A stretch of DNA of 21,042 nt from a virus. Every line of letters starts with the position of its first letter. Position 1 is the first letter of the stretch. The DNA lies in the IMG/VR virus record IMGVR_UViG_3300010371_000122, positions 1 to 21,042 of that record; one strand, 5' to 3'. Made by a program: the position numbers and the translations under genes. Positions 1 through 14,511 of this stretch are shown one piece after another. Under the pieces are notes generated by a model. The model saw only the letters and a list, made by a program, of their open reading frames with translations. It did no database searches and was not told the DNA's origin.

Positions 1-697
1 GTATCCCAAAGGACTGGGCCTTTTTAACCAGTTCCATTGTTTGGGGATCTGGTTTGATCGCTCTGGGGATACTTTTTACTGCATTGGACACCTTCGATGC
101 CCCTGTTTTCAACAGTTCTCCCTCAGGGCTGTCAGCGACCTTGGACGCAACCGATCTTGCCGCCTGACCGATCTTCCCGTAATTTGCCACGCGAGCCGCA
201 GACCCTAATTCTCCGACGACTCCCAATTCCGGCTGCACCGCGATAATTCCGCTATCGTCAATAAATTTCCCTACCTCCTCAACCTCATTCTTCCCGGATT
301 CCGATCTGGGTGAATAGGTGAATCTATTCGATATAGCGGAGAATCTATCCGGGATACTGCCGGAAGGTGCGTCAGGGTCCGTACTCTTCTTCCCGCTTAT
401 GTAATCCAGCGCCTTTTCAGTGGGGCTAAGTACCGCTCCTACAGCCATCCCAATGGGAGCGGTTGCCATGGTAGTTGCCGTTTCGAATGGACCGGCAATT
501 CGGTCTCCTATAGAAGGTTTCTTTTTATCAATACTCGGCTCTACGTATCCATAGTCGGCAGGAATATCCCCTATCGGACCTTTAGGTCCGCGAGATTCCT
601 GTTTGGCCGTACCGGAAGGAGATGCAAGTTCCCCGAAGTCGTACTTGGAACTACGCTTAACAGGAGAGGCGATTGCGCCGAAATCGTAGTTTGCCAT
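1..697 (-). CDS. Partial phage structural protein, possible ejection/internal virion protein (C-terminus off window)
   Basis: An open frame runs from ATG at 697 to the left window edge: 232 codons with no stop. The start overlaps the stop of the preceding gene as TAATG, so it is probably translationally coupled. Near the N-terminus a short motif is repeated: YDFGAIASP at residues 4-12 and YDFGELASP at about 19-27. A Gly/Ala-rich, fairly hydrophobic stretch (about 75-90) follows, then Ser/Lys-rich sequence. No enzymatic domain is visible in the part present. It is third in a run of long genes after the hub protein, the place where P22-like phages keep ejection proteins (gp7, gp20, gp16). That role is inferred from position only. 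The missing part could carry a lytic transglycosylase or another domain. Confidence 0.75.
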   Translation of the reverse strand, partial: MANYDFGAIASPVKRSSKYDFGELASPSGTAKQESRGPKGPIGDIPADYGYVEPSIDKKKPSIGDRIAGPFETATTMATAPIGMAVGAVLSPTEKALDYISGKKSTDPDAPSGSIPDRFSAISNRFTYSPRSESGKNEVEEVGKFIDDSGIIAVQPELGVVGELGSAARVANYGKIGQAARSVASKVADSPEGELLKTGASKVSNAVKSIPRAIKPDPQTMELVKKAQSFGI

Positions 698-2316
698 TAG
701 TTCACCACGTGCTGGATTCCATCGGGGTCATTGAAGGTATCTCCCTTCTTGATCTTTCCGTCCTTGATCGCCTGTTGAAGTTCGGAGGCGCTGGAGAAAA
801 CCAGCCCCTTCTTTTTTGAGAATTCATCATTAATTCCGGACATGATCTCTTCTCGCGTTTGGTCATTAGAACCCTTGGCATTCTGGATAATGCGACGCAT
901 ACCTTCAATTGCAGCCTTCATCTGCTGAGGAGTCTGCGCGTCTTTGTATGCCTCTTTTGAAGCCTGCACATCCTGAACATTGAGTGCCCCAGGATTTCCG
1001 GTGATGATTCCTTCGAACTCATTGAAAACAGCCTTGGCGGCCTGATCCAATTTCGTTACATTAGGATCGCCAATTTCGCGCAATGCCCAAATCTTCCCGC
1101 GTGAGGCGGCAGGAATGCTAGGGAGGTCAAGTTTCGACATGGCGTCTTCCATAACTGGAATTTCCCTGTCGAGTTGATTCTCCGCCCTGCTAAGATTTTG
1201 TGTTCTCACTTCGAAATTGCGTTTGGCAGAGAGTTTCGTCTTCACGTCGGCGGAAGCGGATGTAAGTTCCTGAACGGACATGCCGTTTTCTTTCGCGACT
1301 TGAGCAACATTCTTCATTGTTGCTTGATAGAGACCACCTCTTGCCGGCGGGTTGGTTCCCTTCAAAAGATAATTCCATGTTGCGGCCTCAACCGCGCCCT
1401 TGTCTGTAGGTCCATTCGCATTTCCAGCCATTGCGTCTGCCTTCCTGGAATTCGATGCGGCATTCATGAATAGGGCTTCGGTGCGACGAGGACGATCTTC
1501 GACCTTGCTCTTAATGTCTTCTACCTGAGCGCCAACCAAAGGAGCCTTTTGGTCTATCTTTTGCTGATTTTGCTGGAGGATCTGATTCTGATACTGCTGC
1601 TTCCAGTAAGACGCCTCTACCTTGGCATCGTTACTCATGAATGCCTGAGCCTTGTCCAAGAACGCAGAAAACTGATTCGGATTCGTTACCCCGTTCTTCA
1701 CGGCCCACTGAGCCACCTGTTCCAGGCTCATCTTTGGAGGCTGAGGGATCTGGGAAGCTTGAGGTTGTTGAGGCGCGGACTCTCCATTCATCGATTTGTA
1801 AGGAGCTACCTTTTGCGATGACTGTTGAACCACGTTAGACCAAGCCTTGGACAGTTCATCCCTAGCCTTCGGGTTCGGCATAGAAGCGATGTTTCCGAAG
1901 ACGGAGTTAACGAACGACTGTCGCTCCTGAGGATCGGTAATGGTCTGAAGATAATCGGCACGTTCCTTCAAACCCTTTGCCAATGCCTGCCTTGGGTCGG
2001 ATTTCTGCACTGTCTGAGCAGGATTGACCATAGGGATGGATGCTTGACCCGGAGCGGGAGGTTGAGCAGGAGGAGGAGGTATGGTCTGAGGATTCTGCCC
2101 TCCCGATTGGAAATACTTGAACCACAGGTCGTTCCCTGACTTCTGATCCTGCATGGCCTGCTGCTGTGCCGCAAGCTGCCTTTTGTAGTCCTGAAGTTTC
2201 AGCGCTTCGAGTTCATTGGCCTGCTGTTTTTGGACGAGCGCCTGCTGCCTGTTTTGGTAATCTTCCTGACCTCTTTCGGCAGCGCCGACATATTGCCCGA
2301 CAAGACCTAGATTCAT
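697..2316 (-). CDS. Gln-rich coiled-coil phage structural protein, putative ejection protein (539 aa)
   Basis: The protein is rich in Gln, Lys and Ala. Residues about 15-60 are a strongly Gln-rich helix (repeated QQ pairs), followed by a Pro-rich linker around 78-92 containing IPPPPAQPPAPG. The rest is mostly helical and charged, without membrane segments or catalytic motifs. It has the start MNLGLVGQYVGAAERGQEDYQ and ends in TAA overlapping the next ATG. Long helical Gln-rich proteins downstream of the tail hub are typical of podovirus internal or ejection proteins. By order it could correspond to P22 gp20 or a T7 internal core protein, but I recognise no specific family. Function is inferred from composition and place. 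Confidence 0.8.
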   Translation of the reverse strand: MNLGLVGQYVGAAERGQEDYQNRQQALVQKQQANELEALKLQDYKRQLAAQQQAMQDQKSGNDLWFKYFQSGGQNPQTIPPPPAQPPAPGQASIPMVNPAQTVQKSDPRQALAKGLKERADYLQTITDPQERQSFVNSVFGNIASMPNPKARDELSKAWSNVVQQSSQKVAPYKSMNGESAPQQPQASQIPQPPKMSLEQVAQWAVKNGVTNPNQFSAFLDKAQAFMSNDAKVEASYWKQQYQNQILQQNQQKIDQKAPLVGAQVEDIKSKVEDRPRRTEALFMNAASNSRKADAMAGNANGPTDKGAVEAATWNYLLKGTNPPARGGLYQATMKNVAQVAKENGMSVQELTSASADVKTKLSAKRNFEVRTQNLSRAENQLDREIPVMEDAMSKLDLPSIPAASRGKIWALREIGDPNVTKLDQAAKAVFNEFEGIITGNPGALNVQDVQASKEAYKDAQTPQQMKAAIEGMRRIIQNAKGSNDQTREEIMSGINDEFSKKKGLVFSSASELQQAIKDGKIKKGDTFNDPDGIQHVVN

Positions 2317-2358: not shown

Positions 2359-3306
2359 TTAATCCCAACTTGAATCAGATGTATATTGATCGAATGTTGA
2401 TGGAGAACTATTCCCCTCCGGAGTGGGAGTAGGGGTATTCCAGTTCTTGTATGCCTTTCCGAAATCGGATGCGGCATTTGACCATCCTTGAATTCCATTT
2501 AGCTGGTTTTGAAGATTCACCTGTCCCTGATTAAATGCCTGACTCTGGGCTCCTTGGCCATAGTTGTTATATGAAAGTGCATTAGACTGTAATTGTTGGA
2601 GACCGCTTAGATACGGAGAAATTGCCCCGTAATAACCACCAATGGCAGAATTCTGATCATTGTAGATGGCATTGTTAGCAGAGTAAGGGGCCTGACCTCC
2701 CAGGACATACATCTGCCCCGATGCTGATCCTAAGTTTTGTCCGGCATTATTCGCACTATTCATCGCTCCAATACCGGAAACTTCCCTTTGCAACTGCTGG
2801 TTATTCCAATCATTCTGGAAATTTCCAAGAACATTCCCTTCAATAGCCGCTCCATAAGGCGAAGTTTGAATCCCCCTTGAGTATTCTGCTGCTCTGGTCG
2901 AATCAGTCAATTGCTGAAGATTTTGTTTATAAAGAGTTGACTGTGGATCAAATGCGTTTTGGTATATCTGGTTTCCAGCGGTGAATGAAGTTTTCGAAGC
3001 ATTTTTTGAATTCTTTGCTCCGTTAAGGTAGGAGAGCTCACCTTCATTGGCTGCCGTCTGAAATTGTGATGAGTAAGGGTTGTTGTAAAGATTCTGAAAA
3101 GTCCCGGCTGCGTAAGGGGTGATCTGAGCCCCGAATCCATCTACCTGACCCTGATAAGCTCCGTAGTCAGTTTGGAAGTTTTGTGCCATGCCTGCCTGGT
3201 TTGGAGGAACATAAGCGGATCCTCCACTTCCTCCACTCCCTCCACCTCCTCCAGATTGAGTGGCACCATATACAGCTGCCGCTGCACTTACCCATGCTGC
3301 TGGCAT
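2359..3306 (-). CDS. Asn/Gln/Gly-rich phage structural protein, putative ejection protein (315 aa)
   Basis: The short N-terminus is Ala-rich (MPAAWVSAAAAVYGATQ), followed by a Gly/Ser linker at about 19-30 (GGGGGSGGSGGS). The rest is dominated by Asn, Gln, Ala, Ser and Tyr with almost no charged residues. The C-terminus has a TPTPTPEG turn-rich segment. This low-complexity, uncharged composition is common in small podovirus proteins lying between the tail hub and the large internal proteins. ATG at 3306 lies 1 base after the stop of the oxygenase gene (TGA at 3310-3308). No enzymatic motif is seen. A tail or ejection role, like P22 gp7, is plausible but unproven. Confidence 0.78.
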   Translation of the reverse strand: MPAAWVSAAAAVYGATQSGGGGGSGGSGGSAYVPPNQAGMAQNFQTDYGAYQGQVDGFGAQITPYAAGTFQNLYNNPYSSQFQTAANEGELSYLNGAKNSKNASKTSFTAGNQIYQNAFDPQSTLYKQNLQQLTDSTRAAEYSRGIQTSPYGAAIEGNVLGNFQNDWNNQQLQREVSGIGAMNSANNAGQNLGSASGQMYVLGGQAPYSANNAIYNDQNSAIGGYYGAISPYLSGLQQLQSNALSYNNYGQGAQSQAFNQGQVNLQNQLNGIQGWSNAASDFGKAYKNWNTPTPTPEGNSSPSTFDQYTSDSSWD

Positions 3307-3307
3307 A

Positions 3308-3925
3308 TCACATACTCCTTACTGATTCTTCAAGGGAGAATACATCCGGGCTCCATGGAACCCGATACCCTCTGTCAAGTCGAATACAGACCGTCATCAC
3401 GATATGGTCATCTTTACCTTCATTAATCACTCGATGAGTGGTGTCGTTTCTAAAAAGGTGAATATCGCCCTGAGACTGAACCATTGACTCATCGTCATAT
3501 ATGAAGGCCGCGTTTTGATTGCTTTGGAGGCAGACATTGAACTTATCGTAGAAGGAGGCGTGCCAACCTTTATCGACATGTGGATAAATCTGCTTACCCG
3601 GTTCCACTTTGTAGACAAATACCCCGCCAAGCATCTCTCCACCGACGCGGTGCATTAAGTCGAAAATAATCTTCTTTGAAGATGGGAGAAAGTCGATAGT
3701 CTTATTCCAGTCCGGTATATGCTCATCGCTGAAATTCGACCAGTCACCCGTCTTCACGTTTTCCGTTTCGTCCTTGTATCGGAGGAACATATCCTGTGTT
3801 TCATGATGAGGACCGACTTTTGATAATCGGCACGGGTTCTTATTCCATAATTCTGGTTGCCGATGAATCTCTAAAAGCAATGGGATGACATCCACTCCTT
3901 GAGCGACTTTCATGAAATTTTTCAC
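3308..3925 (-). CDS. 2-oxoglutarate/Fe(II)-dependent oxygenase, aspartyl/asparaginyl hydroxylase-like (205 aa)
   Basis: The protein has the double-stranded beta-helix signature of 2OG/Fe(II) oxygenases. An HxD iron-binding pair is at H116 and D118 (IYPHVDKGWH), and a distal His at H164 (DTTHRVINEG). Arg165 or Arg182 (VCIRLDRG) are candidates for the 2-oxoglutarate carboxylate ligand. GDIHLFRNDTTHRVIN resembles the distal part of the aspartyl/asparaginyl beta-hydroxylase fold. The start ATG overlaps the stop of the upstream cupin gene as ATGA, so the two are almost certainly co-translated. The substrate is unknown: a virion protein, a host protein, a nucleic acid base or a small molecule are all possible. 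It is unusual because it sits between the tail-hub and ejection-type genes. Confidence 0.82.
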   Translation of the reverse strand: MKNFMKVAQGVDVIPLLLEIHRQPELWNKNPCRLSKVGPHHETQDMFLRYKDETENVKTGDWSNFSDEHIPDWNKTIDFLPSSKKIIFDLMHRVGGEMLGGVFVYKVEPGKQIYPHVDKGWHASFYDKFNVCLQSNQNAAFIYDDESMVQSQGDIHLFRNDTTHRVINEGKDDHIVMTVCIRLDRGYRVPWSPDVFSLEESVRSM

Positions 3926-4293
3926 TTCACCTCTCCCACGTAGGGACGGCTGATGTCGTCAATATCCATTCCTCGCGTATCGTGGATGCAATAAGCCATC
4001 GTCTTATCAACTAACGCTATCAACCTGTGATGGCAATTTGCTTTTATGTCGATAAAAGCCGGAGCCTCATATTCCTTGGTCTCTCCATCGCACTCAACCC
4101 GAAGAGATCCGTAAGCAAGCAATGTCGTATGTTCGTAGTCATGAGAGTGACCGATAGCTTCGCGGTGGTCCGGATTTTCTTCAAAGTCGAAATACATACG
4201 CTTGATGAATATGTTCCCCACATGCCTGAAAAAATCATCGCTTTGCTTGATCAAGTTTCGACTTTCGGATGTTTCTTTAAATTGATCGTCCAT
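3922..4293 (-). CDS. Small cupin-fold protein (123 aa)
   Basis: A single-domain cupin is indicated by metal-ligand motif 1, HSHDYE, with H49, H51 and E54 followed by a Gly at 62, and by a motif-2 His (H88 or H89 in ANCHHRL). The spacing fits the family. Length of about 120 aa is usual for a monocupin. It starts 6 bases after the hub gene; the SD-like AGGAAAAA includes part of the hub stop codon (CCT TAG GAA). It ends in an ATGA overlap with the 2OG oxygenase. It may bind metal and act as a small dioxygenase, isomerase or binding partner of the oxygenase. The reaction cannot be told from sequence. Confidence 0.8.
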   Translation of the reverse strand: MDDQFKETSESRNLIKQSDDFFRHVGNIFIKRMYFDFEENPDHREAIGHSHDYEHTTLLAYGSLRVECDGETKEYEAPAFIDIKANCHHRLIALVDKTMAYCIHDTRGMDIDDISRPYVGEVK

Positions 4294-4299
4294 TTTTTC

Positions 4300-6147
4300 C
4301 TAAGGTGTATTGGTATATCCAAGTTCCTGATACCGCATGTCTATCTCTCTGATCGAAACGTTTTGCGCGGAATAAGTAGAAACCGACAAAATCATCTTCT
4401 TGAAAACAATCGGATTAGGCCACGGCATGGTGTAAGGATGGGTAGTCAATGCATTCGATGACCAAATAAAAGAACCCCACTTCGATACTCCCCATGCCGC
4501 TCCAGACCCCGGGACCGAAAGATTTAATGTAGATAGAAGAGAGTACTGATCGTTATATGCAACGATCGTGTAGACGATGCTTGATGACGAACTTGATAAC
4601 TCGATGGTTGACTCGACAATCGCCTTTACCTTCATCGGATCGGATTGAGGCATTGACGACGACAACATGGAACACAGATAAACTGCACTATTGTCCAAAT
4701 AGGCTGTTGAAGGCGACGGAATTACATCGGACTTGAACAACTTACCTGGGTAGGTATTCGATGCAAGATAAAAAGACGTTCCCACCGGGACTGCCGAATG
4801 GTAAGGAAAGGTATGAATCCCATTCCATCTGGAGAACAGAAAGTCAAACCAATAGTCCGCCGCCGAGACAGGAACTCCAAAGGTATTAGCGCCCTTGGAG
4901 ATTGTGTCTAAGGCGATTCTATAAATTCCGTTGTTGTATGCGGCGCATGCCCGAGTTGGGTCGGTAGCATTAGAAAATGGAGCCGCAATATCGGGAGAAA
5001 CATCTGAATTCCTCTTCAGGTATTGAAGTTGCCCTCCTAAATCTACTATCCTTGGTCCATCCGATCCGATGAACACCACCCCATACAGAGTCGATTGGGC
5101 AGTCCTCGGCATACTGCATCCAACGTTATCCGCAATCTCGTTCAAAGATAATGCTGCGGAACCGGATAGAGTAATATCTCCGACAATCTGATATACCGAA
5201 CCTGCCTTGAAAACGATGAGTGACTGAAGAATTCCTTGCGATGACGCATTGGATGGAAGTCCAACCGCTCCGGTCGAATTTGTCGTATCTCCCAGAGTCA
5301 ACGATGCAGCGAAGTTCGTATTGCTTATCGTTAGAGGAGAAAGCGAGTCGGAGAAAAGTACCTGATTCGCACATCCGTAATAGGCTCTACCGAAGAACTG
5401 AGCCACCCAAATAGGAACGGATGGAAGTTCATTGGTCGTTGTATTCCCCGCTCCCCACTGAGGTGCCGCGAAAGATCCTCCTGTAACTGTTACCGTTACT
5501 GTCCCCGATGCGCTGGCCGGATTACTCATCACAATCGTAGATGCAGTTGTCGATACTACCGTTGTATTCGCCGGAACCCCTGTTCCGGTTACGATCATCC
5601 CCGGCAATACGCCTGTCGTTGAGCTGACCGAAGTTAAGGTTGCACTCGTTGAAGTGGTCGTTGCCGTGGGCGTTATAACGAACCCGGAAATATCGAACCA
5701 GCCGATGTAATTACTTCCCGAGAATCCGGGATGCGTTACCACTACCCTTCCGCCGATGACATCCATCGTCGGAGGATTCCATGTCCCAGACGTTGGCTGA
5801 GTAGCGGGCACATTAGTCGATAGCACGTTGGCTACTGTGACAAACATCCCTGAAGCAGTGTCGTAACAAAATGGCTCATCCATGCCGGAATTTCTGGATG
5901 TGCCTATCAATCCATAAATTCTTGTCCCGACCGACAACTGAGCAGAAACCACTCCCGGACTTGAGAATCCGGGAAATGAAGTGGACAAGGAAACTCCCGG
6001 CCTCGCAATGACTGCTCCTCTGTTCTGCCTGTCGAATATCAGGTTCGACAAAGACTGACATGCCCCAGGAAATGAAGACGCCTGATCCACCGCATCCGTT
6101 AGCCCCGATGGAATAAACGTGACCGGAAGGGAATTCCGAATCGCCAT
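4300..6147 (-). CDS. Tail hub/nozzle protein, P22 gp10 / T7 gp12-like (615 aa)
   Basis: This large beta-rich protein directly follows the head-tail adaptor (TAATG overlap at 6147), the position of the packaged-DNA stabilisation protein gp10 in P22 and the nozzle gp12 in T7. Its N-terminus (LTDAVDQASSFPGACQSLSNLIFDRQNRGAVIARPGV) was cut here for length: it reads LTDAV then SNLIFDRQ and VIARPGV, a pattern usual for such hubs. Residues about 157-224 look like an inserted Thr/Ser/Val module with LPGMIVTGTGVP and SASGTVTVTV, a small beta module found in many phage proteins. The remainder has beta-propeller-like repeats (RIYGLIGTS, GIYRIALDT, SFYLASNTYPGKLFK). It should form the part of the tail that closes the head after packaging. 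Confidence 0.78.
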   Translation of the reverse strand: MAIRNSLPVTFIPSGLTDAVDQASSFPGACQSLSNLIFDRQNRGAVIARPGVSLSTSFPGFSSPGVVSAQLSVGTRIYGLIGTSRNSGMDEPFCYDTASGMFVTVANVLSTNVPATQPTSGTWNPPTMDVIGGRVVVTHPGFSGSNYIGWFDISGFVITPTATTTSTSATLTSVSSTTGVLPGMIVTGTGVPANTTVVSTTASTIVMSNPASASGTVTVTVTGGSFAAPQWGAGNTTTNELPSVPIWVAQFFGRAYYGCANQVLFSDSLSPLTISNTNFAASLTLGDTTNSTGAVGLPSNASSQGILQSLIVFKAGSVYQIVGDITLSGSAALSLNEIADNVGCSMPRTAQSTLYGVVFIGSDGPRIVDLGGQLQYLKRNSDVSPDIAAPFSNATDPTRACAAYNNGIYRIALDTISKGANTFGVPVSAADYWFDFLFSRWNGIHTFPYHSAVPVGTSFYLASNTYPGKLFKSDVIPSPSTAYLDNSAVYLCSMLSSSMPQSDPMKVKAIVESTIELSSSSSSIVYTIVAYNDQYSLLSTLNLSVPGSGAAWGVSKWGSFIWSSNALTTHPYTMPWPNPIVFKKMILSVSTYSAQNVSIREIDMRYQELGYTNTP

Positions 6148-6821
6148 TAATCGCCCTGCAATTTTGTCGGCTTGACGAATCGAACCGAGCGGAACGTCTG
6201 CGGGTCTTTCTTGACCGAAATGGCGCGATTCTCTTTGTCGTTGGCCATCTGAAGAAGGCGTCTGAACTTGTCGTCGTTCTTTACTGAAAATTCGTTCGCA
6301 CGAGTATCATCGGCGATGTCCATCAAGTCTTCAGCTACCATCTTGATCAACAATAGTTGATCCTGAAACCATGGAATAGTCGAGGACGTTTCCGGATTTG
6401 TGATCTCCACCAGGTTGTCCATGTACCGCACAGTCAATGGAGCGGAAACTACCGGTGACGGATAGAGAATGATCGTGGGAGGAGACTGCGCTATATCCGT
6501 TGCGTAGTAGTACGGATAATCCTGCTCTCCCGGACCATTGAACAGTCCATCGTAATCTTCAAGGCTGATCTGATTCGGCTCGAATACCTGACCGTTCACG
6601 TTATAAAAAACCTCCCGCGCACGCAGGTAATTGGCGGGGAGGTTGTAGGTTGAAGTACCCGCAATCATCTGGATGGTTGTCGTCCGTCTGATGATGTCCA
6701 AATCCTGATCCAGAGCGATTTGAATCAGGCGGGCGTTCATGAACTGCCCCGCCTGAGTCGTCATTCCCGGAACCTTGGCGATAGAACATGCCAGGCTGAT
6801 GATTTGGGTACTGGTCAGCAT
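6147..6821 (-). CDS. Head-tail adaptor, P22 gp4 / T7 gp11-like (224 aa)
   Basis: An N-terminal helical region (about 1-45, SLACSIAKVPGM, FMNARLIQIALDQDLDIIRR) is followed by beta strands with TYNLPANYLRAREVFY, then SPPTIILYPSPV and PLTVRYMDNLVEI, and a C-terminal helical bundle (about 150-200). This order (helices, NLPxxYLR strand, P-containing strands, helices) is typical of podovirus adaptor proteins that attach under the portal. Length is close to the usual 160-220 aa. It overlaps both neighbours by TAATG and directly precedes the hub gene, as gp4-gp10 do in P22. The family name is from recognition, not a search. Confidence 0.8.
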   Translation of the reverse strand: MLTSTQIISLACSIAKVPGMTTQAGQFMNARLIQIALDQDLDIIRRTTTIQMIAGTSTYNLPANYLRAREVFYNVNGQVFEPNQISLEDYDGLFNGPGEQDYPYYYATDIAQSPPTIILYPSPVVSAPLTVRYMDNLVEITNPETSSTIPWFQDQLLLIKMVAEDLMDIADDTRANEFSVKNDDKFRRLLQMANDKENRAISVKKDPQTFRSVRFVKPTKLQGD

Positions 6822-7601: not shown

Positions 7602-7629
7602 AAAAAAGGGAACCCGGTTAGGGGTTCCC
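7602..7629 (-). terminator. Rho-independent terminator after the capsid gene
   Basis: Read on the minus strand: GGGAACCC stem (8 bp, perfect), loop CTAACC, GGGTTCCC, then TTTTTT. It lies 22 bases past the capsid stop and 15 bases before the next start, so it probably reduces expression of genes after the capsid. Confidence 0.9.
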
Positions 7630-7651
7630 TTGATTGCCTAGTAGCCTAGGA

Positions 7652-9043
7652 TTAACTCAACGAACCAGTAGTGATTACGTTGGAGTAGTTCGAACCTGAC
7701 TCGAAACGCAGGAAGAAAGCCTGATTAAGAATCATGGTTCCGTAGAAAATCTTCCACGAGATGACTCGCAGTTGATTATGTGGATCGGACTTGTCCGCAT
7801 CTTTCAAGTATTCGAAGTGCGCACTGTCAAGCGTGACTTGGCCGTACGCACCCTTACCAATGAAGAACGACGGATAGACCGTAACGCCGGTTGCCGGAGG
7901 CAGGGGAGCCACCAGCGACGGAGTTGCGCTGTTTTGCAGAGATGCGACGGTAGGTCCGGGGCCGGTCAGAGTGACAGTAGTCCCACCGGTCAGTTGAGTG
8001 GCATAACCCGCAAAACCTCCCGTTGTCGGGACACTTGCGCACAGCGCCAGCGTATTGGGTGTAGTACCTGCCGCAGCAGACAGGTAGCAGTTGAAGGTGT
8101 ATCCCGCAACCGTAGACGCCGGAAGCGTCACCGACATGCCCTGACCGGAGGTCATCGAGATATTCCCCGATGACTGGTGGATGATGCGCTCATAGCCGAA
8201 CACCGGGTCAGTTTCCGTCACGAACAACTGATAGTTTGCGGTGGTGAACGTGCCGACGCCGGAGCTAGTACCCGTTACCAAGGCAGCTCCAGTGTACCAA
8301 GGGGTCATGTTGGTGGAGGTGAAACGAACACCGCCCCATACACCGACTTCCATGTTGTACAGAACTTCCAGATCGCTATACGACCATGCATTGGACATGG
8401 TGGTATTCGAACGAAGATCCTGCTCAACCAAGGGGTGGATGATCGATACGTAGTGAGGTTTATTCTTACCTCCACCACGAACGACATCCAATTCCATCTT
8501 GTCGTCCTCGAAATCGCGAGCGCCGAATTTCGGAGCGCCAACGGTATTCAATGAGCCGACCGCCTTGTTTACTTCGGTAACACCGAGAACGTCAGTTGCC
8601 AACAGATTTGCACGAGACGATTTTCCGTTCGCGAAACCGATGTTTGTACCCGACATCAGAGCGTTGTGAGTGTTTCTCTCAAGAGTTTCCGCCAATTGCA
8701 GAGCGGTTACTCGCATGCCTTCCTTGAATAGGTCATGTTCAATGGTCAGCATATCCACGTCGGTGATGTACACCGAATCTCCCCACTGCTGAGCAGTGGC
8801 GGATTGCTGAGAGATAGGCATGATCTCGCCAACAGACGGCACGCCTTCAGCCAACGGAGCGTTAGGAAGGTTGATGCGAGAGTAACGTGTGGCGGTGTAA
8901 GTCGTGCCACGGTTTTTCGGAAGCGTCAGGGGAACGCCAAACTGAAATGCAACCAGTTGGCGCTGAGCCAAAGGCAGGACTTTTTTCTGGATGTAATTAC
9001 TGATGTCGGCGCTAAAGCTACTCGACTTATTTACATTGCTCAT
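7652..9043 (-). CDS. Major capsid protein, N4-gp56 family-like (463 aa)
   Basis: The N-terminal half (1-130) follows the N4-gp56 capsid pattern: YIQKKVLPLAQRQLVAFQFG (15-34), then GTTYTATRYSRI (46-57) and LAEGVPSV. Later segments HYVSIIHPLVEQDL (197-210) and the C-terminal PHNQLRVISWKIFYGTMILN (421-440) fit the HK97-fold end of that family. Residues about 250-390 appear to be an inserted or expanded Gly/Thr/Ser/Val-rich beta region not expected in the basic fold. The start ATG has SD GGAG about 7 bases upstream (TTTGGAGATTTAAATG). The gene is flanked by terminators on both sides and follows its scaffold, consistent with high, separately tuned expression. Confidence 0.92.
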   Translation of the reverse strand: MSNVNKSSSFSADISNYIQKKVLPLAQRQLVAFQFGVPLTLPKNRGTTYTATRYSRINLPNAPLAEGVPSVGEIMPISQQSATAQQWGDSVYITDVDMLTIEHDLFKEGMRVTALQLAETLERNTHNALMSGTNIGFANGKSSRANLLATDVLGVTEVNKAVGSLNTVGAPKFGARDFEDDKMELDVVRGGGKNKPHYVSIIHPLVEQDLRSNTTMSNAWSYSDLEVLYNMEVGVWGGVRFTSTNMTPWYTGAALVTGTSSGVGTFTTANYQLFVTETDPVFGYERIIHQSSGNISMTSGQGMSVTLPASTVAGYTFNCYLSAAAGTTPNTLALCASVPTTGGFAGYATQLTGGTTVTLTGPGPTVASLQNSATPSLVAPLPPATGVTVYPSFFIGKGAYGQVTLDSAHFEYLKDADKSDPHNQLRVISWKIFYGTMILNQAFFLRFESGSNYSNVITTGSLS

Positions 9044-9057
9044 TTAAATCTCCAAAT

Positions 9058-9083
9058 AAAAAAGCCGCCTTCTTTGGCGGCTT
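9058..9083 (-). terminator. Rho-independent terminator after the scaffold gene
   Basis: On the minus strand: AAGCCGCC, loop AAAGAA, GGCGGCTT, followed by a T tract. The scaffold stop TAA overlaps the first stem arm by two bases. It ends before the capsid SD. Some read-through, or a further promoter, is needed for the capsid if no other start site lies in the 38-base gap. Confidence 0.88.
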
Positions 9084-9795
9084 ATAGCGGGATGTCCTTG
9101 AGTCGGTCGTATTCCGTGCTCTCGGACTTGGATGGAGCCACATTCGATTTCGTACCAAGAGGCTTTCCGGTAGCGGCTTTCACGCGAGCGGTGGCTTCTC
9201 GCTTGATTGCCGGGGCCTTTTTCAACTGCTCCCGATGGTCACGTCCCATAAGGACAACCATGATTTGTTCGCGGGGCGGGTTAAATCCGTTTTTTCGCGC
9301 CTTTGCGAGTTCTTGCTCGACGCGTTCAACGTATTGGGCTTCTTCCGGGTTCTTTGAAACGGAAAATAGAAATGCAGACTTATCGTCCATGTCCTGTTGG
9401 CGCATTTGGACTTGCTGCAATGTTTTGTTGGCATCTCTCTGCCACTTTTCCAGCGGATCAAGGTCTTCTTCTTCCTGATTCGGTCGTTGAGACCGCCTGA
9501 TTTCCTCAAGCTGCTGTTCCAGTAGCTGTGCTCGCTGCTCAGCCAAAAGTCGCTGTTCGCGCTCTGCCGTTCTTTCATTGGCAAGGCGTTGATAACGTTG
9601 CGACTTCGACTCCTTCGATCCTTTTTCGGTCGTATGAACCTGCTCGTGTTCCTCTTCGTGAAGATCCTCATCTGCCGTTTCCTCGGTGATTTCCTCGGTT
9701 TCGGCTTCCTCGACTTCAGTTTCTTCACTCGATTCCACGGGGGTATCGTTCAATCCAGCGTTCAATGCTTCAACATCAAATTCTTCGTTTTCCAT
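9082..9795 (-). CDS. Capsid scaffolding protein (237 aa)
   Basis: The protein is very acidic in residues 1-60 (runs of Glu such as EETEVEEAETEEITEE). A long charged coiled-coil follows (about 65-105, RLANERTAEREQRLLAEQ and LLEQQLEEIRR), and the C-terminal part is basic with a helix near KKAPAIKREATARVKAAT. Acidic N-terminus, central coiled coil and basic C-terminus, immediately upstream of the major capsid gene, is the usual arrangement for scaffolds. There is no protease motif. The start has SD AAGAGGA, and a hairpin (9810-9822) ends only a few bases before that SD. Confidence 0.88.
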   Translation of the reverse strand: MENEEFDVEALNAGLNDTPVESSEETEVEEAETEEITEETADEDLHEEEHEQVHTTEKGSKESKSQRYQRLANERTAEREQRLLAEQRAQLLEQQLEEIRRSQRPNQEEEDLDPLEKWQRDANKTLQQVQMRQQDMDDKSAFLFSVSKNPEEAQYVERVEQELAKARKNGFNPPREQIMVVLMGRDHREQLKKAPAIKREATARVKAATGKPLGTKSNVAPSKSESTEYDRLKDIPL

Positions 9796-10760: not shown

Positions 10761-12815
10761 TTATCCGCGCATTCCTGCTTGCGCGTCTGCCATTTGATCT
10801 TGGTGTATCGCTCCAGCGGGTTGCTGAGCGACTCCTCTTGGTCCTGACGGTATCGAACCTGGGCGAGGCGTTCCGGCCACCCCTGGCCCAGCCCCACCCG
10901 GGATTCCGGGCTGCCCTTTCGGCTGTTGCTGGGCGAGTTTTGCCTGCATTGACTTGACGTGCTCCATGATGTGATTACGGAACGATCCGGTTGGGTCTTT
11001 CGTCTGCTGAGCCGCCTTTTGGTGCTCTTGGATGTGATGCTGATCATCATCCATGGGAGATGGAGTAACGGGAAGATTGTTAAGCAGGATCTCGTTCTCA
11101 ATTTCCGGAGGAATCGACATCTTGTGGCTTTCGTCAATCAAGACGTTCTGCGCCATGGTCGGCCCTAGAATCGCTTGATTAATGAACTCGATCATCTTGC
11201 CCAAATCAAGTTTTCTTCCGTTCAAAACCTGAGGAGGAAGTCCTCTAAGCACATTCATCCAGGCGATCATTTGTTGAATGTTTTGGGCTCCAATTGCCTT
11301 ATCTGCACCGTTCCAATGGAACCAATATCGGATTCCCGCCTGCTGGGGGGGGATCTTCTCAATGATGGACTGTATTCCATGCTCGCCTTCTTGAACGACG
11401 AGAAGATCCTCCTCCCGGAATTGGAGATCGAGTTCATAGAACCACTCCAATAATTTGTTCATGACGCCATTCTCGAATCGCTTTACGACATCGCCAATGG
11501 TCGCCATCGCTTCAGCGCTTTGCTGTCCGATAGCCTGAGCATTTTTCCGTCCAGCCGGAGCACGTCCAAGCATGGTTTCATTGACATCCATCGATTCCAT
11601 GATCTGCTGCTTGATGGATCCTCTGATAGTCAGGGAATGCTGATACAGAGCCGGGAAGTCGACAATTTTCGTGTCGTTCGGGTTCGTCGCCCAGATAGCG
11701 GCCATGGAAAGAACCATCGATGAATACTGAGGATTCTTCAGCGGATCGGTCATGATGATGGGCATCAGCGAATACATCGCAGAGTCTTGGCCCATGTTCG
11801 AAATGTCGTTAAGTTGATACTGAAGCGCCGCAACGGGAGAAACCTTCGACTTACCCCAGAACGATCCAGCAACCTTATCGACGGCTTCTGAAATGATAGG
11901 TATTTTCTGAGACCAGTACGGGTTCTCAATTACACCGAGAATATTGTCCGGACCACCGAAGTAGATAATGGCTGGCTTCTTCTTTCCGTCCAATTTAAGT
12001 TTTGCGAAGGCCATGTAAATCAAAGCGAACTTCTGACCTGCCTTGATCTTTATTCCGGCCTCCCCACTTCTTTCTTTCTGAGCCCACTTGGCTTGATCTT
12101 CGCCGGCATCCTTGGCTAGTTTCTTGACCGCCGCCTTCAGGAATACGCCTTCCTCTACCTTTTCGTCTAGGGCATCTTCCGTAAGTCGGAGGGCAACCGA
12201 TACGATTTCCGCATCCTGAATATCGGAAACCGTGGCCGGGAATACCCATAAATCCTGGGCCGGGATGATCGTTACATCCGGGCCTTCATCTACGATGGTT
12301 TCTTTTTCTACGTCCGAAACCTCAGTTCCTTCTATGGTCTTTTTTACTTTCCTGGTGATGGTTCTTTCTTTTCGCTTCCAGTCGGGCATAATTGACCATT
12401 GCCCTTCCACGTCGCCATTCAGGAACAGCGTGGAGACAGCCGACCGAAGATCGGTCTCCCGAACATGGCGCTGAAGAATCGCCAGAGTTTCACCGGGAGA
12501 ATTCCCCTGCTCGGAAATCACTTCGATATTGTTTCCAACACTTGGAAACGTCATGCCAGTGAAACGCTTGCGACGAGCCTCTATCGCATCGTGCACAATC
12601 GGCTCATAAACCTGAGCATCGCCGTCGTACTGCTGGTTTTCACCTAAAACGCAGTTGTAGATGTCCCAATACTCATCGATGGATTCAGATTGATCTTTCT
12701 TTTCCTCTTTGAATCCAGAAACGATCTGCGCATATAACTTGTAGCACTTCTCTTTTACGGATGATTCAGTGGCGTAGTTTTTCAACTTTCCAGAGGATTT
12801 TTCTTCTTCTGCCAA
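10761..12815 (-). CDS. Portal protein (684 aa)
   Basis: A large portal: N-terminal region with YEPIVHDAIEARRKRFTGM (about 68-86), a central part (about 190-260) with DVTIIPAQDLWVFPATVSD, and the stem/wing segment with LPDLxxQ-type helices. Here that segment is IQQMIAWMNVLRGLPPQVLN near residues 525-545. The C-terminal tail is Gly/Pro/Gln-rich and likely disordered (PKGQPGIPGGAGPGVAG). Length of about 680 aa fits P22/podovirus portals. The only in-frame start near the N-terminus is TTG (12815-12813), one base past the stop of the 65-aa gene. It lies just after terminase, as usual, and would form the dodecameric DNA channel. Confidence 0.87.
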   Translation of the reverse strand: MAEEEKSSGKLKNYATESSVKEKCYKLYAQIVSGFKEEKKDQSESIDEYWDIYNCVLGENQQYDGDAQVYEPIVHDAIEARRKRFTGMTFPSVGNNIEVISEQGNSPGETLAILQRHVRETDLRSAVSTLFLNGDVEGQWSIMPDWKRKERTITRKVKKTIEGTEVSDVEKETIVDEGPDVTIIPAQDLWVFPATVSDIQDAEIVSVALRLTEDALDEKVEEGVFLKAAVKKLAKDAGEDQAKWAQKERSGEAGIKIKAGQKFALIYMAFAKLKLDGKKKPAIIYFGGPDNILGVIENPYWSQKIPIISEAVDKVAGSFWGKSKVSPVAALQYQLNDISNMGQDSAMYSLMPIIMTDPLKNPQYSSMVLSMAAIWATNPNDTKIVDFPALYQHSLTIRGSIKQQIMESMDVNETMLGRAPAGRKNAQAIGQQSAEAMATIGDVVKRFENGVMNKLLEWFYELDLQFREEDLLVVQEGEHGIQSIIEKIPPQQAGIRYWFHWNGADKAIGAQNIQQMIAWMNVLRGLPPQVLNGRKLDLGKMIEFINQAILGPTMAQNVLIDESHKMSIPPEIENEILLNNLPVTPSPMDDDQHHIQEHQKAAQQTKDPTGSFRNHIMEHVKSMQAKLAQQQPKGQPGIPGGAGPGVAGTPRPGSIPSGPRGVAQQPAGAIHQDQMADAQAGMRG

Positions 12816-12816
12816 T

Positions 12817-13014
12817 TTACTTCTTTCTAGCCATAGGTTTTTTTGCTACGACCGATTGCATTTCCTTGATCTTCTCCGTGGCGCACTTTTGCGCGGCCAC
12901 CATCCTCTTCCGGTCGTTCTCGATTTCCTTGGCGCGAGCCAAAGTTCTCATGTCGTCTTCAGCGCGATATTTCGCATCGTCATACAGTCCAATTGACGGT
13001 TTTTTCGTAGCCAT
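12817..13014 (-). CDS. Small charged protein between terminase and portal (65 aa)
   Basis: A short, highly charged, probably helical protein (MATKKPSIGLYDDAKYRAED, then many Lys/Arg/Glu) with a basic C-terminal end (VVAKKPMARKK). Its ATG overlaps the TerL stop as TAATG and its TAA is one base from the portal TTG start. Small ORFs of this type often sit here in podoviruses. Function unknown. Confidence 0.7.
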   Translation of the reverse strand: MATKKPSIGLYDDAKYRAEDDMRTLARAKEIENDRKRMVAAQKCATEKIKEMQSVVAKKPMARKK

Positions 13015-14438
13015 TAATATGCCTTTCGTGGTCGGGAGGTTAGGTAGGTCACACCACTATTGTTCGTGGCGTAGTGACCTTCTTTTTTATTGGAATAGCC
13101 GAGTTGCAAAACAGATCGGCAGAGATACCTCATACAATCGAGTAAATGGTCATTTTTCTTGACCACCTTTCCGTGCTCATCTCTCCGATACATCGGGAGT
13201 TCTTTCTGAATATTCGTCAGGGTCCTGAAAATCTTCAACCGACCCGAAATCATTCTTTGGTAAACATCGAAGATCCCGGCTTCAACCGCGTTGTCTGCGA
13301 AGATCAGGGTCAGACCTTCGTTTCGGTACAACTGGATTAACTGAGATCCGTCATGCTGAGAACGCCCCCTTGAAGCGGGATCGATAAACCCGGTCATCTC
13401 GCCGCGAGCTTTTATTGCTGAAGCATGGGCAGCGGGCGATGCTTCTCCCATGTAATGTTCCGAGTAAAGATAGAGGATGTCGCTGTCTCTATCGTGAGCG
13501 CCCCACAATGCAGCAGTTCGATTCCACCCCACGTCCAGGGAATATCCCTTCGGCCAATAGTCCGGAAGTTTTATCGGATCGCAAAGGATGTCTTCAAGTG
13601 AAACCGGATAAATCTTTCCGGCCCCGATGGTCGGAACACCGGTAGTTCTCGCCTCCCTTTCATGCAAGGGGATGCCTTCTAGGTACTTTTTCTTCTGTTC
13701 TTCCGACAGGTGTGGAACGTCGTTCCATCCCGCCATGACCAGATATTTATCGGATGACTTGTCGGCATCCAGAAACATTTGAGTCACGTCTCCCATGCCC
13801 TCGACGGGGGTATAGGTATTCATGATCATTCCGTTTGTCGTCATGGTTCGCATGTACGCTTCGGAATAGATCGACAGAGGAGGTTCTTCGTCCAGCCAAA
13901 CTCCGTGTTTAGCAGTCCCCTGCCATGCTTCACGATCCTGATCGTAAGATTTCAACTGGAGGATTGACTTACCTCCCGAGGAATGTCTTACATAGATGTT
14001 TTCAACCGCGTCAGCGAGACCGCGTTTATTTGTGGTTCCGATTAGGCAGTCACCACGGATAAGGCCAGTGCCGAATTCTCCTATCGGTCCCAGTAAGGCA
14101 AGCTGAAGGATGTCGCGGACGGTCGTTGTGGTATCTCCGCCGGCCCACCATTCCACCGGATGGTCGAATCGCTTCCCGGGCCACCAGTCGGGATATTGCC
14201 CAGTCAAATGGAGGGTTGTTTCGTACCCGCCAATCGTTAGCGTCTTGCCGATACGGTTTGCCGCCAGCGCGGTGCGTTCCGTGTACTTCTTTCCGGCTTC
14301 GAAAAACTCCAGATGTTTCTTGTACAGTTCCCTTCTCAATGGTCCTGAGTCGGGGAAATACTGATCAATCGCGTTTCGTTTCTTCCGACTCTCCAACTCC
14401 TTCAGTATTCGTTCTGCCTCCTGAAGGAGTTCACTCAT
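13014..14438 (-). CDS. terL: Terminase large subunit (ATPase/nuclease, 474 aa)
   Basis: Numbered from MSELLQEAERIL: an N-terminal ATPase with Walker A-like AANRIGKT (59-66), Walker B VWLDEE (181-185 region) and NTYTP coupling-type segment (207-211). A C-terminal RNase H-like nuclease follows, with acidic residues in SLDVGWN (D302), GFIDPASRG (D353) and KNDHLLDCMRYL (D430/D434). This is the terminase_6 type that cuts and pumps genome DNA through the portal. I prefer the ATG at 14438 over the frame-opening ATG at 14486. The extra 16 codons overlap a separate 26-aa ORF (14431-14511), and GGGTG before 14438 can serve as SD. It ends TAATG into the next gene. Confidence 0.95.
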   Translation of the reverse strand: MSELLQEAERILKELESRKKRNAIDQYFPDSGPLRRELYKKHLEFFEAGKKYTERTALAANRIGKTLTIGGYETTLHLTGQYPDWWPGKRFDHPVEWWAGGDTTTTVRDILQLALLGPIGEFGTGLIRGDCLIGTTNKRGLADAVENIYVRHSSGGKSILQLKSYDQDREAWQGTAKHGVWLDEEPPLSIYSEAYMRTMTTNGMIMNTYTPVEGMGDVTQMFLDADKSSDKYLVMAGWNDVPHLSEEQKKKYLEGIPLHEREARTTGVPTIGAGKIYPVSLEDILCDPIKLPDYWPKGYSLDVGWNRTAALWGAHDRDSDILYLYSEHYMGEASPAAHASAIKARGEMTGFIDPASRGRSQHDGSQLIQLYRNEGLTLIFADNAVEAGIFDVYQRMISGRLKIFRTLTNIQKELPMYRRDEHGKVVKKNDHLLDCMRYLCRSVLQLGYSNKKEGHYATNNSGVTYLTSRPRKAY

Positions 14439-14511
14439 CGTTACACCCGCACAGAACGGCCATACGCCCGCAGATAGGACAATCAATCTGCGGTTTTTTA
14501 CGGTAGGTCAT
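14431..14511 (-). CDS. 26-aa zinc-knuckle-like microprotein
   Basis: ATG at 14511 overlaps the stop of the 260-aa gene as TAATG. The frame ends TGA at 14431-14433, 8 bases inside the TerL start. It has CPICG at residues 11-15 and CGC at 21-23, with a basic start (MTYRKKPQID), so C11, C14, C21 and C23 could bind one zinc. The close spacing with both neighbours supports translation and explains the region upstream of TerL. Role unknown. Confidence 0.62.
   Translation of the reverse strand: MTYRKKPQIDCPICGRMAVLCGCNDE

Follow-up and report, generated by a model that had tools for sequence, protein, structure and literature searches.

Ejection proteins of short-tailed phages traverse the nozzle and reassemble in the cell envelope to form a channel. 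GNATs and members of the PF05118 hydroxylase family act on small molecules too, including free L-proline and nucleosides. AspH-like genes are known in phages (PMC12195039, PMC7029224, PMC3037559); Limnohabitans phage DC33 (PMC12195039) and pelagimyophages (PMC7029224) both encode PF05118 members. In Cobavirus, the GNAT pc40 lies beside internal virion proteins and was equated with T7 gp13 by position (PMC6775973), and a Ralstonia phage cupin carries a tail-fibre name without validation (PMC8703784). Our literature search found no description of an oxygenase-cupin pair, partner-specific clades, an altered 2-oxoglutarate (2OG) anchor or an exchangeable slot. The individual components are already known, and the pair and the exchangeable slot are apparently new.

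An oxygenase-cupin pair within a virion gene block

We analyzed a stretch of viral DNA of 21,042 nucleotides (the window), whose minus strand carries a virion gene block including both an oxygenase and a cupin ORF. The features are as follows.

14486..13014, minus strand: terL
12815..10761, minus strand: portal
9795..9082, minus strand: scaffold
9043..7652, minus strand: major capsid protein (MCP)
6821..6147, minus strand: SU10-type adaptor
4300..6147, minus strand: nozzle/hub-type virion structural protein of 615 aa that borders the slot on its upstream side (phrog_6002/6005 virion structural protein; kept in relatives L155-L165)
3922..4293, minus strand: small monocupin, 123 aa, with a predicted four-His metal site (H49, H51, H55, H89)
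3922..3925, minus strand: 4-nt GTGA overlap of the cupin stop and the oxygenase start, probably translationally coupled
3308..3925, minus strand: PF05118-type Fe(II) oxygenase (AspH / proline-hydroxylase-like), 205 aa, GTG start; metal ligands H116, D118, H164; 2OG-anchor positions Y105, K128, H174
2359..3306, minus strand: Gly/Ala/Gln-rich 315-aa protein in the DNA-ejection (gp7/gp14-type) position, judged by position and relatives; candidate substrate
697..2316, minus strand: second internal-protein-type gene, 539 aa, Gln-rich, judged by position and relatives L157-L159
697..<2, minus strand: third internal/ejection-type gene

The original prediction, made from the window alone, had described an oxygenase and a cupin overlapping by ATGA between a tail-hub gene and ejection-type genes. 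Both ORFs are indeed present on the minus strand of the virion block, and they overlap by four nucleotides, but the sequence of the overlap is GTGA. A Shine-Dalgarno-like stretch, GGGAGAGG, lies ahead of it. The pair does lie between the nozzle/hub-type gene and the 3306..2359 gene. The product of the latter itself matched no PHROG, phrog_598 included, and a clean hhalign comparison with recognized ejection proteins gave 0.6%. A higher hhalign value, of 99%, came from a profile sharing members with the query and was rejected on that clean repeat. We use "ejection-type" for this putative ejection protein on the grounds of its position, composition and relatives. The 697..2316 product gave no confident family match.

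A sequence scan from the nozzle gene to the end of the oxygenase gene detected neither a promoter-like site on this strand nor a T-rich terminator; it showed just one weak hairpin, at 3365..3346. Because no such promoter or terminator intervenes, a single transcript across the nozzle, cupin and oxygenase genes is likely. Elsewhere on the minus strand, two strong terminator-like hairpins (7606-7631 and 9062-9083) stand on either side of the major capsid gene, as if the level of its transcript were set separately. Residues ~155-230 of the nozzle/hub-type protein (4300-6147) form a Ser/Thr-rich Ig-like insert (STSATLTSVSSTTGVLPGMIVTGTGVPANTTV), in the portion matching phrog_6002/6005.

Predicted metal sites of the oxygenase and the cupin

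In a Pfam profile search, the oxygenase matched PF05118 (Asp_Arg_Hydrox) at 25.3 bits (cut-off 22.6, E 1.6e-5), and the alignment showed H116, D118, H164 and N168 unchanged in all full-length relatives. An AF2 model built from 54 relatives reached a pLDDT of 95. Its closest solved folds were L-proline cis-4-hydroxylase, a nucleoside-antibiotic hydroxylase, AspH and viral or other prolyl hydroxylases, and its closest viral models were phage proteins named 'Aspartyl/asparaginy/proline hydroxylase'. The structure prediction proposed as a check on the earlier claim thus gives a hydroxylase fold in the model, with a metal site that appears intact by sequence.

The 2OG part of the 2OG/Fe(II) assignment fared less well than the family match and the invariant H116/D118/H164 triad. 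R735 and S668 of AspH anchor the C5-carboxylate of 2OG. In the window's oxygenase subclade, the position of R735 is H174 in eight of nine members and that of S668 is Y105 in all nine, whereas nearly all relatives outside this subclade keep R/K174 and T/S/N105. Most members of the cupin-partnered clade have K128 at the position of AspH R688 and C180 at that of the next Asp. With the canonical anchor (Arg with Ser, Thr or Asn) swapped for His174 and Tyr105, the use of 2OG by the window oxygenase is doubtful, and the enzymes of this branch may use another co-substrate. A search of 84,980 genomes with the window-subclade motifs as query returned one weak bacterial relative of 27% identity (L064:1697-2254), which lies in an ordinary chromosomal setting in a Rhodovibrionaceae MAG.

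The cupin scored 21.5 bits against Cupin_2, below the cut-off of 27.2, in a Pfam profile search; a profile of 15 slot cupins matched solved small cupins with an E value of 5e-6. AF2 predicts a cupin barrel (mean pLDDT 79, with values >90 in the core of the barrel) resembling TM1459, CelOCE (9BWF) and KdgF, and H52/H54/H58 mutants of TM1459 were among the structure matches. H49, H51, H55 and H89 are invariant in all 15 aligned cupins, and E54 varies. The most likely metal ligands by alignment are therefore these four histidines: of the ligands first proposed (H49, H51, E54), the two histidines hold and the glutamate does not, and the site appears intact both in sequence and in the predicted barrel.

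Direct tblastn and a single-protein scan found no relatives of the window cupin, and its relatives were reached solely through the neighbors of oxygenase relatives. The cupin also matched PHROG 12032 and 24280 ('short tail fiber'; E 4e-4 and 0.028), families that include such cupins. We found no experimental basis in the literature for this label on slot cupins, and we flag its widespread use as doubtful. A Shewanella phage X14 cupin is labeled a 'structural gene', for which its paper yields no mass-spectrometry basis.

The pair recurs in other phages

Scans of IMG/VR identified 145 oxygenase ORFs in phage-type loci, with a cupin adjoining in about 20 of these loci; the arrangement is therefore not due to chance. 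Clustering at 90% identity gave 92 oxygenase clusters, of which 64 had a GNAT as partner, 15 a cupin and none both. The remaining 13 had neither, a class that includes truncated loci and one locus (L030) whose GNAT stands behind an HNH insert. Two further oxygenase-cupin pairs, in L157 and L158, were reached via the capsid protein.

In the oxygenase tree, cupin-partnered and GNAT-partnered enzymes form separate clades (98% SH-aLRT). In the window's subclade the cupin precedes the oxygenase, and in the other cupin-partnered relatives it follows it, which amounts to one change of gene order on the tree. Distances between oxygenases correlate with those between cupins (Mantel r 0.32, p 0.003, n 16). 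The survey of neighbors thus bears out the expectation that the pair would be conserved at this position in other phages: the cupin recurs beside the oxygenase in virion operons, and their adjacency outlasts the flip in gene order. The pairing makes a joint reaction plausible, an idea limited by the four to five relatives in which the oxygenase occurs without a cupin and by the GNAT partner of the larger clade.

Two other arrangements were observed. In L156, likewise reached via the capsid protein, the cupin's place is taken by an oxygenase partner (11026-11553) with a PAPS-loop-like RSGSTW start and a weak match to Sulfotransfer_3 (E 0.018). In L054-L056, oxygenase relatives (near 6001-6567 / 1160-1741) immediately follow a different major capsid gene, and cupin, GNAT and ejection gene are absent.

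The slot upstream of the ejection gene holds different enzymes

We then considered the slot as such. Of 69 genes lying after the module, 51 matched phrog_598 'DNA ejection'; others matched further ejection or structural families. In named phages, the slot holds cupins labeled 'short tail fiber', often with lost metal ligands (as in Vibrio, Shewanella and Dickeya phages), or GNATs alone; the cupin-family gene of Xanthomonas phage Mallos is an exception, located outside the block of structural genes. Compared with T7 gp13, slot GNATs gave an hhalign probability of 0.25% (3-sequence profile), and homology was not found.

Cupin-SET methyltransferase fusions occupy the slot in Rhodoferax P26218, ct1fd225 and Pseudoalteromonas PH1. 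Such fusions in isolated or complete phages (L153:3920-4681, L150:3890-4765 and L228:3465-4295) bear the annotations tail fibre, methyltransferase or hypothetical. By hhalign (96.8%), the SET-fused cupin is a homolog of the window's cupin family, and it lacks the last His of the four-His set. It has 60 relatives in IMG/VR, and SET was present in all 22 of those scanned. The phrog_598 ejection gene trails the fusion at +2 or by a short overlap.

To avoid ascertainment by enzyme, we seeded a survey with the ejection protein of PfAn1, which yielded 23 loci that include near-duplicates, so that the counts are not independent. A modification-type enzyme was found in the slot in 19 of them: oxygenase with GNAT in two, a second oxygenase type with GNAT in four (HxD...H, assigned by motif only), GNAT or GNAT-like alone in five (two by eye, with one profile test negative), cupin in three, and cupin-SET or SET in five. 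One locus held an unknown protein, of 157 aa (L245:2523-2996), upstream of the ejection gene, and three showed nothing visible. The second oxygenase type (HQVHSD...LHRAEP; L234:1887-2462, L235:1890-2498, L237:1918-2493, L238:1921-2493) looks unrelated to the first, and no solved structural relative of it was found.

Phages whose capsid proteins are 86-88% identical still differ in slot content, and the slot of L159 holds a cupin whose metal ligands are lost and no oxygenase. Slot enzyme genes frequently overlap their neighbors.

Interpretation of the module

We propose that in these short-tailed phages the slot, bounded by the nozzle gene on one side and the first ejection/internal-protein gene on the other, takes interchangeable small enzymes that are usually protein-modifying. 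In this phage, a putative mononuclear-iron hydroxylase and a putative four-His metal cupin would be co-translated just ahead of the ejection-type protein. The oxygenase would hydroxylate an Asp, Asn or Pro type residue of a virion protein from the same transcript, with the 3306..2359 product as the first candidate substrate, and the cupin would either complete the oxidation or dock the enzyme on its target. Docking is favored by the SET fusions and the metal-less cupin forms, catalysis by the invariance of the four-His site in oxygenase-paired forms. In related phages, acetylation by a GNAT or lysine methylation by a cupin-SET fusion would do the equivalent job. Any benefit would arise during assembly or as the DNA enters the cell.

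Our best-supported guess is that a protein of the virion, or one that is injected, becomes hydroxylated, because the slot is shared with SET methyltransferases, GNATs and a second oxygenase. Since enzymes of hydroxyl, acetyl and methyl transfer alternate there, often overlapping neighboring genes, modification of a protein made next door is an economical reading, and that protein would most likely be the ejection-type one. That the slot is exchangeable among modification enzymes, with the oxygenase here hydroxylating a co-translated virion protein, we judge to be close to an even chance, though below it. Tentatively, and with a probability somewhat short of even, we extend this to short-tailed phages as a dedicated exchangeable slot for post-translational modification enzymes upstream of the ejection gene. 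Hydroxylase with cupin, hydroxylase with GNAT, second oxygenase with GNAT, cupin-SET and GNAT alone would be alternative ways to modify a protein entering the host with the DNA, and the oxygenase of the window's branch may draw on a co-substrate other than 2OG.

Several observations speak against modification of a virion protein. A search of the ejection-type proteins saw no substrate signature, as the oxygenase-less L159 keeps the same conserved core; members of both enzyme families also act on small molecules; and the 2OG anchor is replaced. Some oxygenases are partnerless, L054-L056 have no ejection gene, and the 3306..2359 product had no clean profile match to known ejection proteins.

The oxygenase and its cupin or GNAT could instead catalyze successive steps on a small molecule (for example a free amino acid, a nucleoside or an envelope/polysaccharide precursor), with the late-operon place serving only for timing. 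Among the closest solved folds are hydroxylases of free L-proline and one of a nucleoside antibiotic, metabolites are common substrates of small cupins and GNATs, and the L156 partner bears its PAPS-loop-like motif. We nevertheless regard such a metabolic role as rather unlikely, since the enzymes are mostly confined to one slot beside internal virion genes, no pathway genes accompany them there, and SET domains, which typically methylate proteins, are fused to the same cupin in the same slot.

It is also improbable that the cupin is a structural or binding domain ('short tail fiber', 'tail fiber adhesin') with the oxygenase as an independent neighbor. It is precisely in the oxygenase-paired cupins that the four-His site never varies, and the pairing persists through the gene-order flip, which outweighs for us the PHROG family names, the ligand-losing Vibrio, Shewanella and Dickeya cupins at the same place and the missing last His of the SET-fused cupins; the tail-fibre name of the Ralstonia phage cupin is itself without validation (PMC8703784).

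Modification of a host factor, either at a late stage of infection or once the enzymes have been delivered along with the genome (in counter-defense or translation control, for instance), would fit the variable, exchangeable slot content, which is like that of rapidly evolving host-interaction genes. A defense-family search gave no PADLOC-type match, however, there is no evidence of packaging of the enzymes, and the fixed adjacency to ejection genes with frequent gene overlaps points to partners made next door; we consider this reading quite unlikely. Interchangeable cargo without joint function, the pair hitch-hiking in a slot that tolerates small genes, is very improbable despite HNH nucleases and other inserts next to the slot and the solitary oxygenases, as a small, constant set of enzyme types recurs across diverse phages, partner choice follows oxygenase clade, and catalytic residues are invariant, neither neutral nor decaying.

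Turning back to the modification of neighboring proteins, the slot enzymes for acetylation and methylation and the second oxygenase suggest that such viruses chemically modify proteins they assemble or inject. If true, covalent modification of ejection proteins would add a new layer of genome-entry control. Because several unrelated transfer and oxidation enzymes occur at one position, the idea is testable in cultured isolates: if true, the neighboring protein would be hydroxylated/acetylated or methylated in virions of Pseudomonas phage PfAn1 and Limnohabitans phage DC33, which both have oxygenase with GNAT, and of the cupin-SET phages Rhodoferax phage P26218 and Pseudoalteromonas phage PH1.

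Comparison with known systems

The window oxygenase shares with the PF05118 hydroxylases (AspH, L-proline cis-4-hydroxylase 4P7W, proline 3-hydroxylase 1E5R) the double-stranded beta-helix, the HxD...H triad and a score above the Pfam cut-off. It differs from them as a short single-domain form in a virion operon, and its subclade has His174 and Tyr105 in place of the 2OG anchors R/K and S/T/N, with R128 replaced by Lys and D180 by Cys. The cupin shares its barrel with small cupins, TM1459 and CelOCE (9BWF) among them, and its HxHx3H...H spacing (2/4/34) with TM1459, whose four-His site is H52/H54/H58/H92; it is distinguished from TM1459-type cupins by an identity of about 18%, a phage operon and an oxygenase partner.

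PHA00672-type phage cupins and the cupin-SET fusions (P26218, ct1fd225, PH1) have a homologous cupin and the same slot directly upstream of a DNA-ejection gene, but they lack the oxygenase, have partly lost the metal ligands and in some cases carry a fused SET domain. The Cobavirus pc40 GNAT occupies the same genomic slot and represents the partner type of the sister oxygenase clade, whereas its chemistry is different and slot GNATs have no profile match to T7 gp13.
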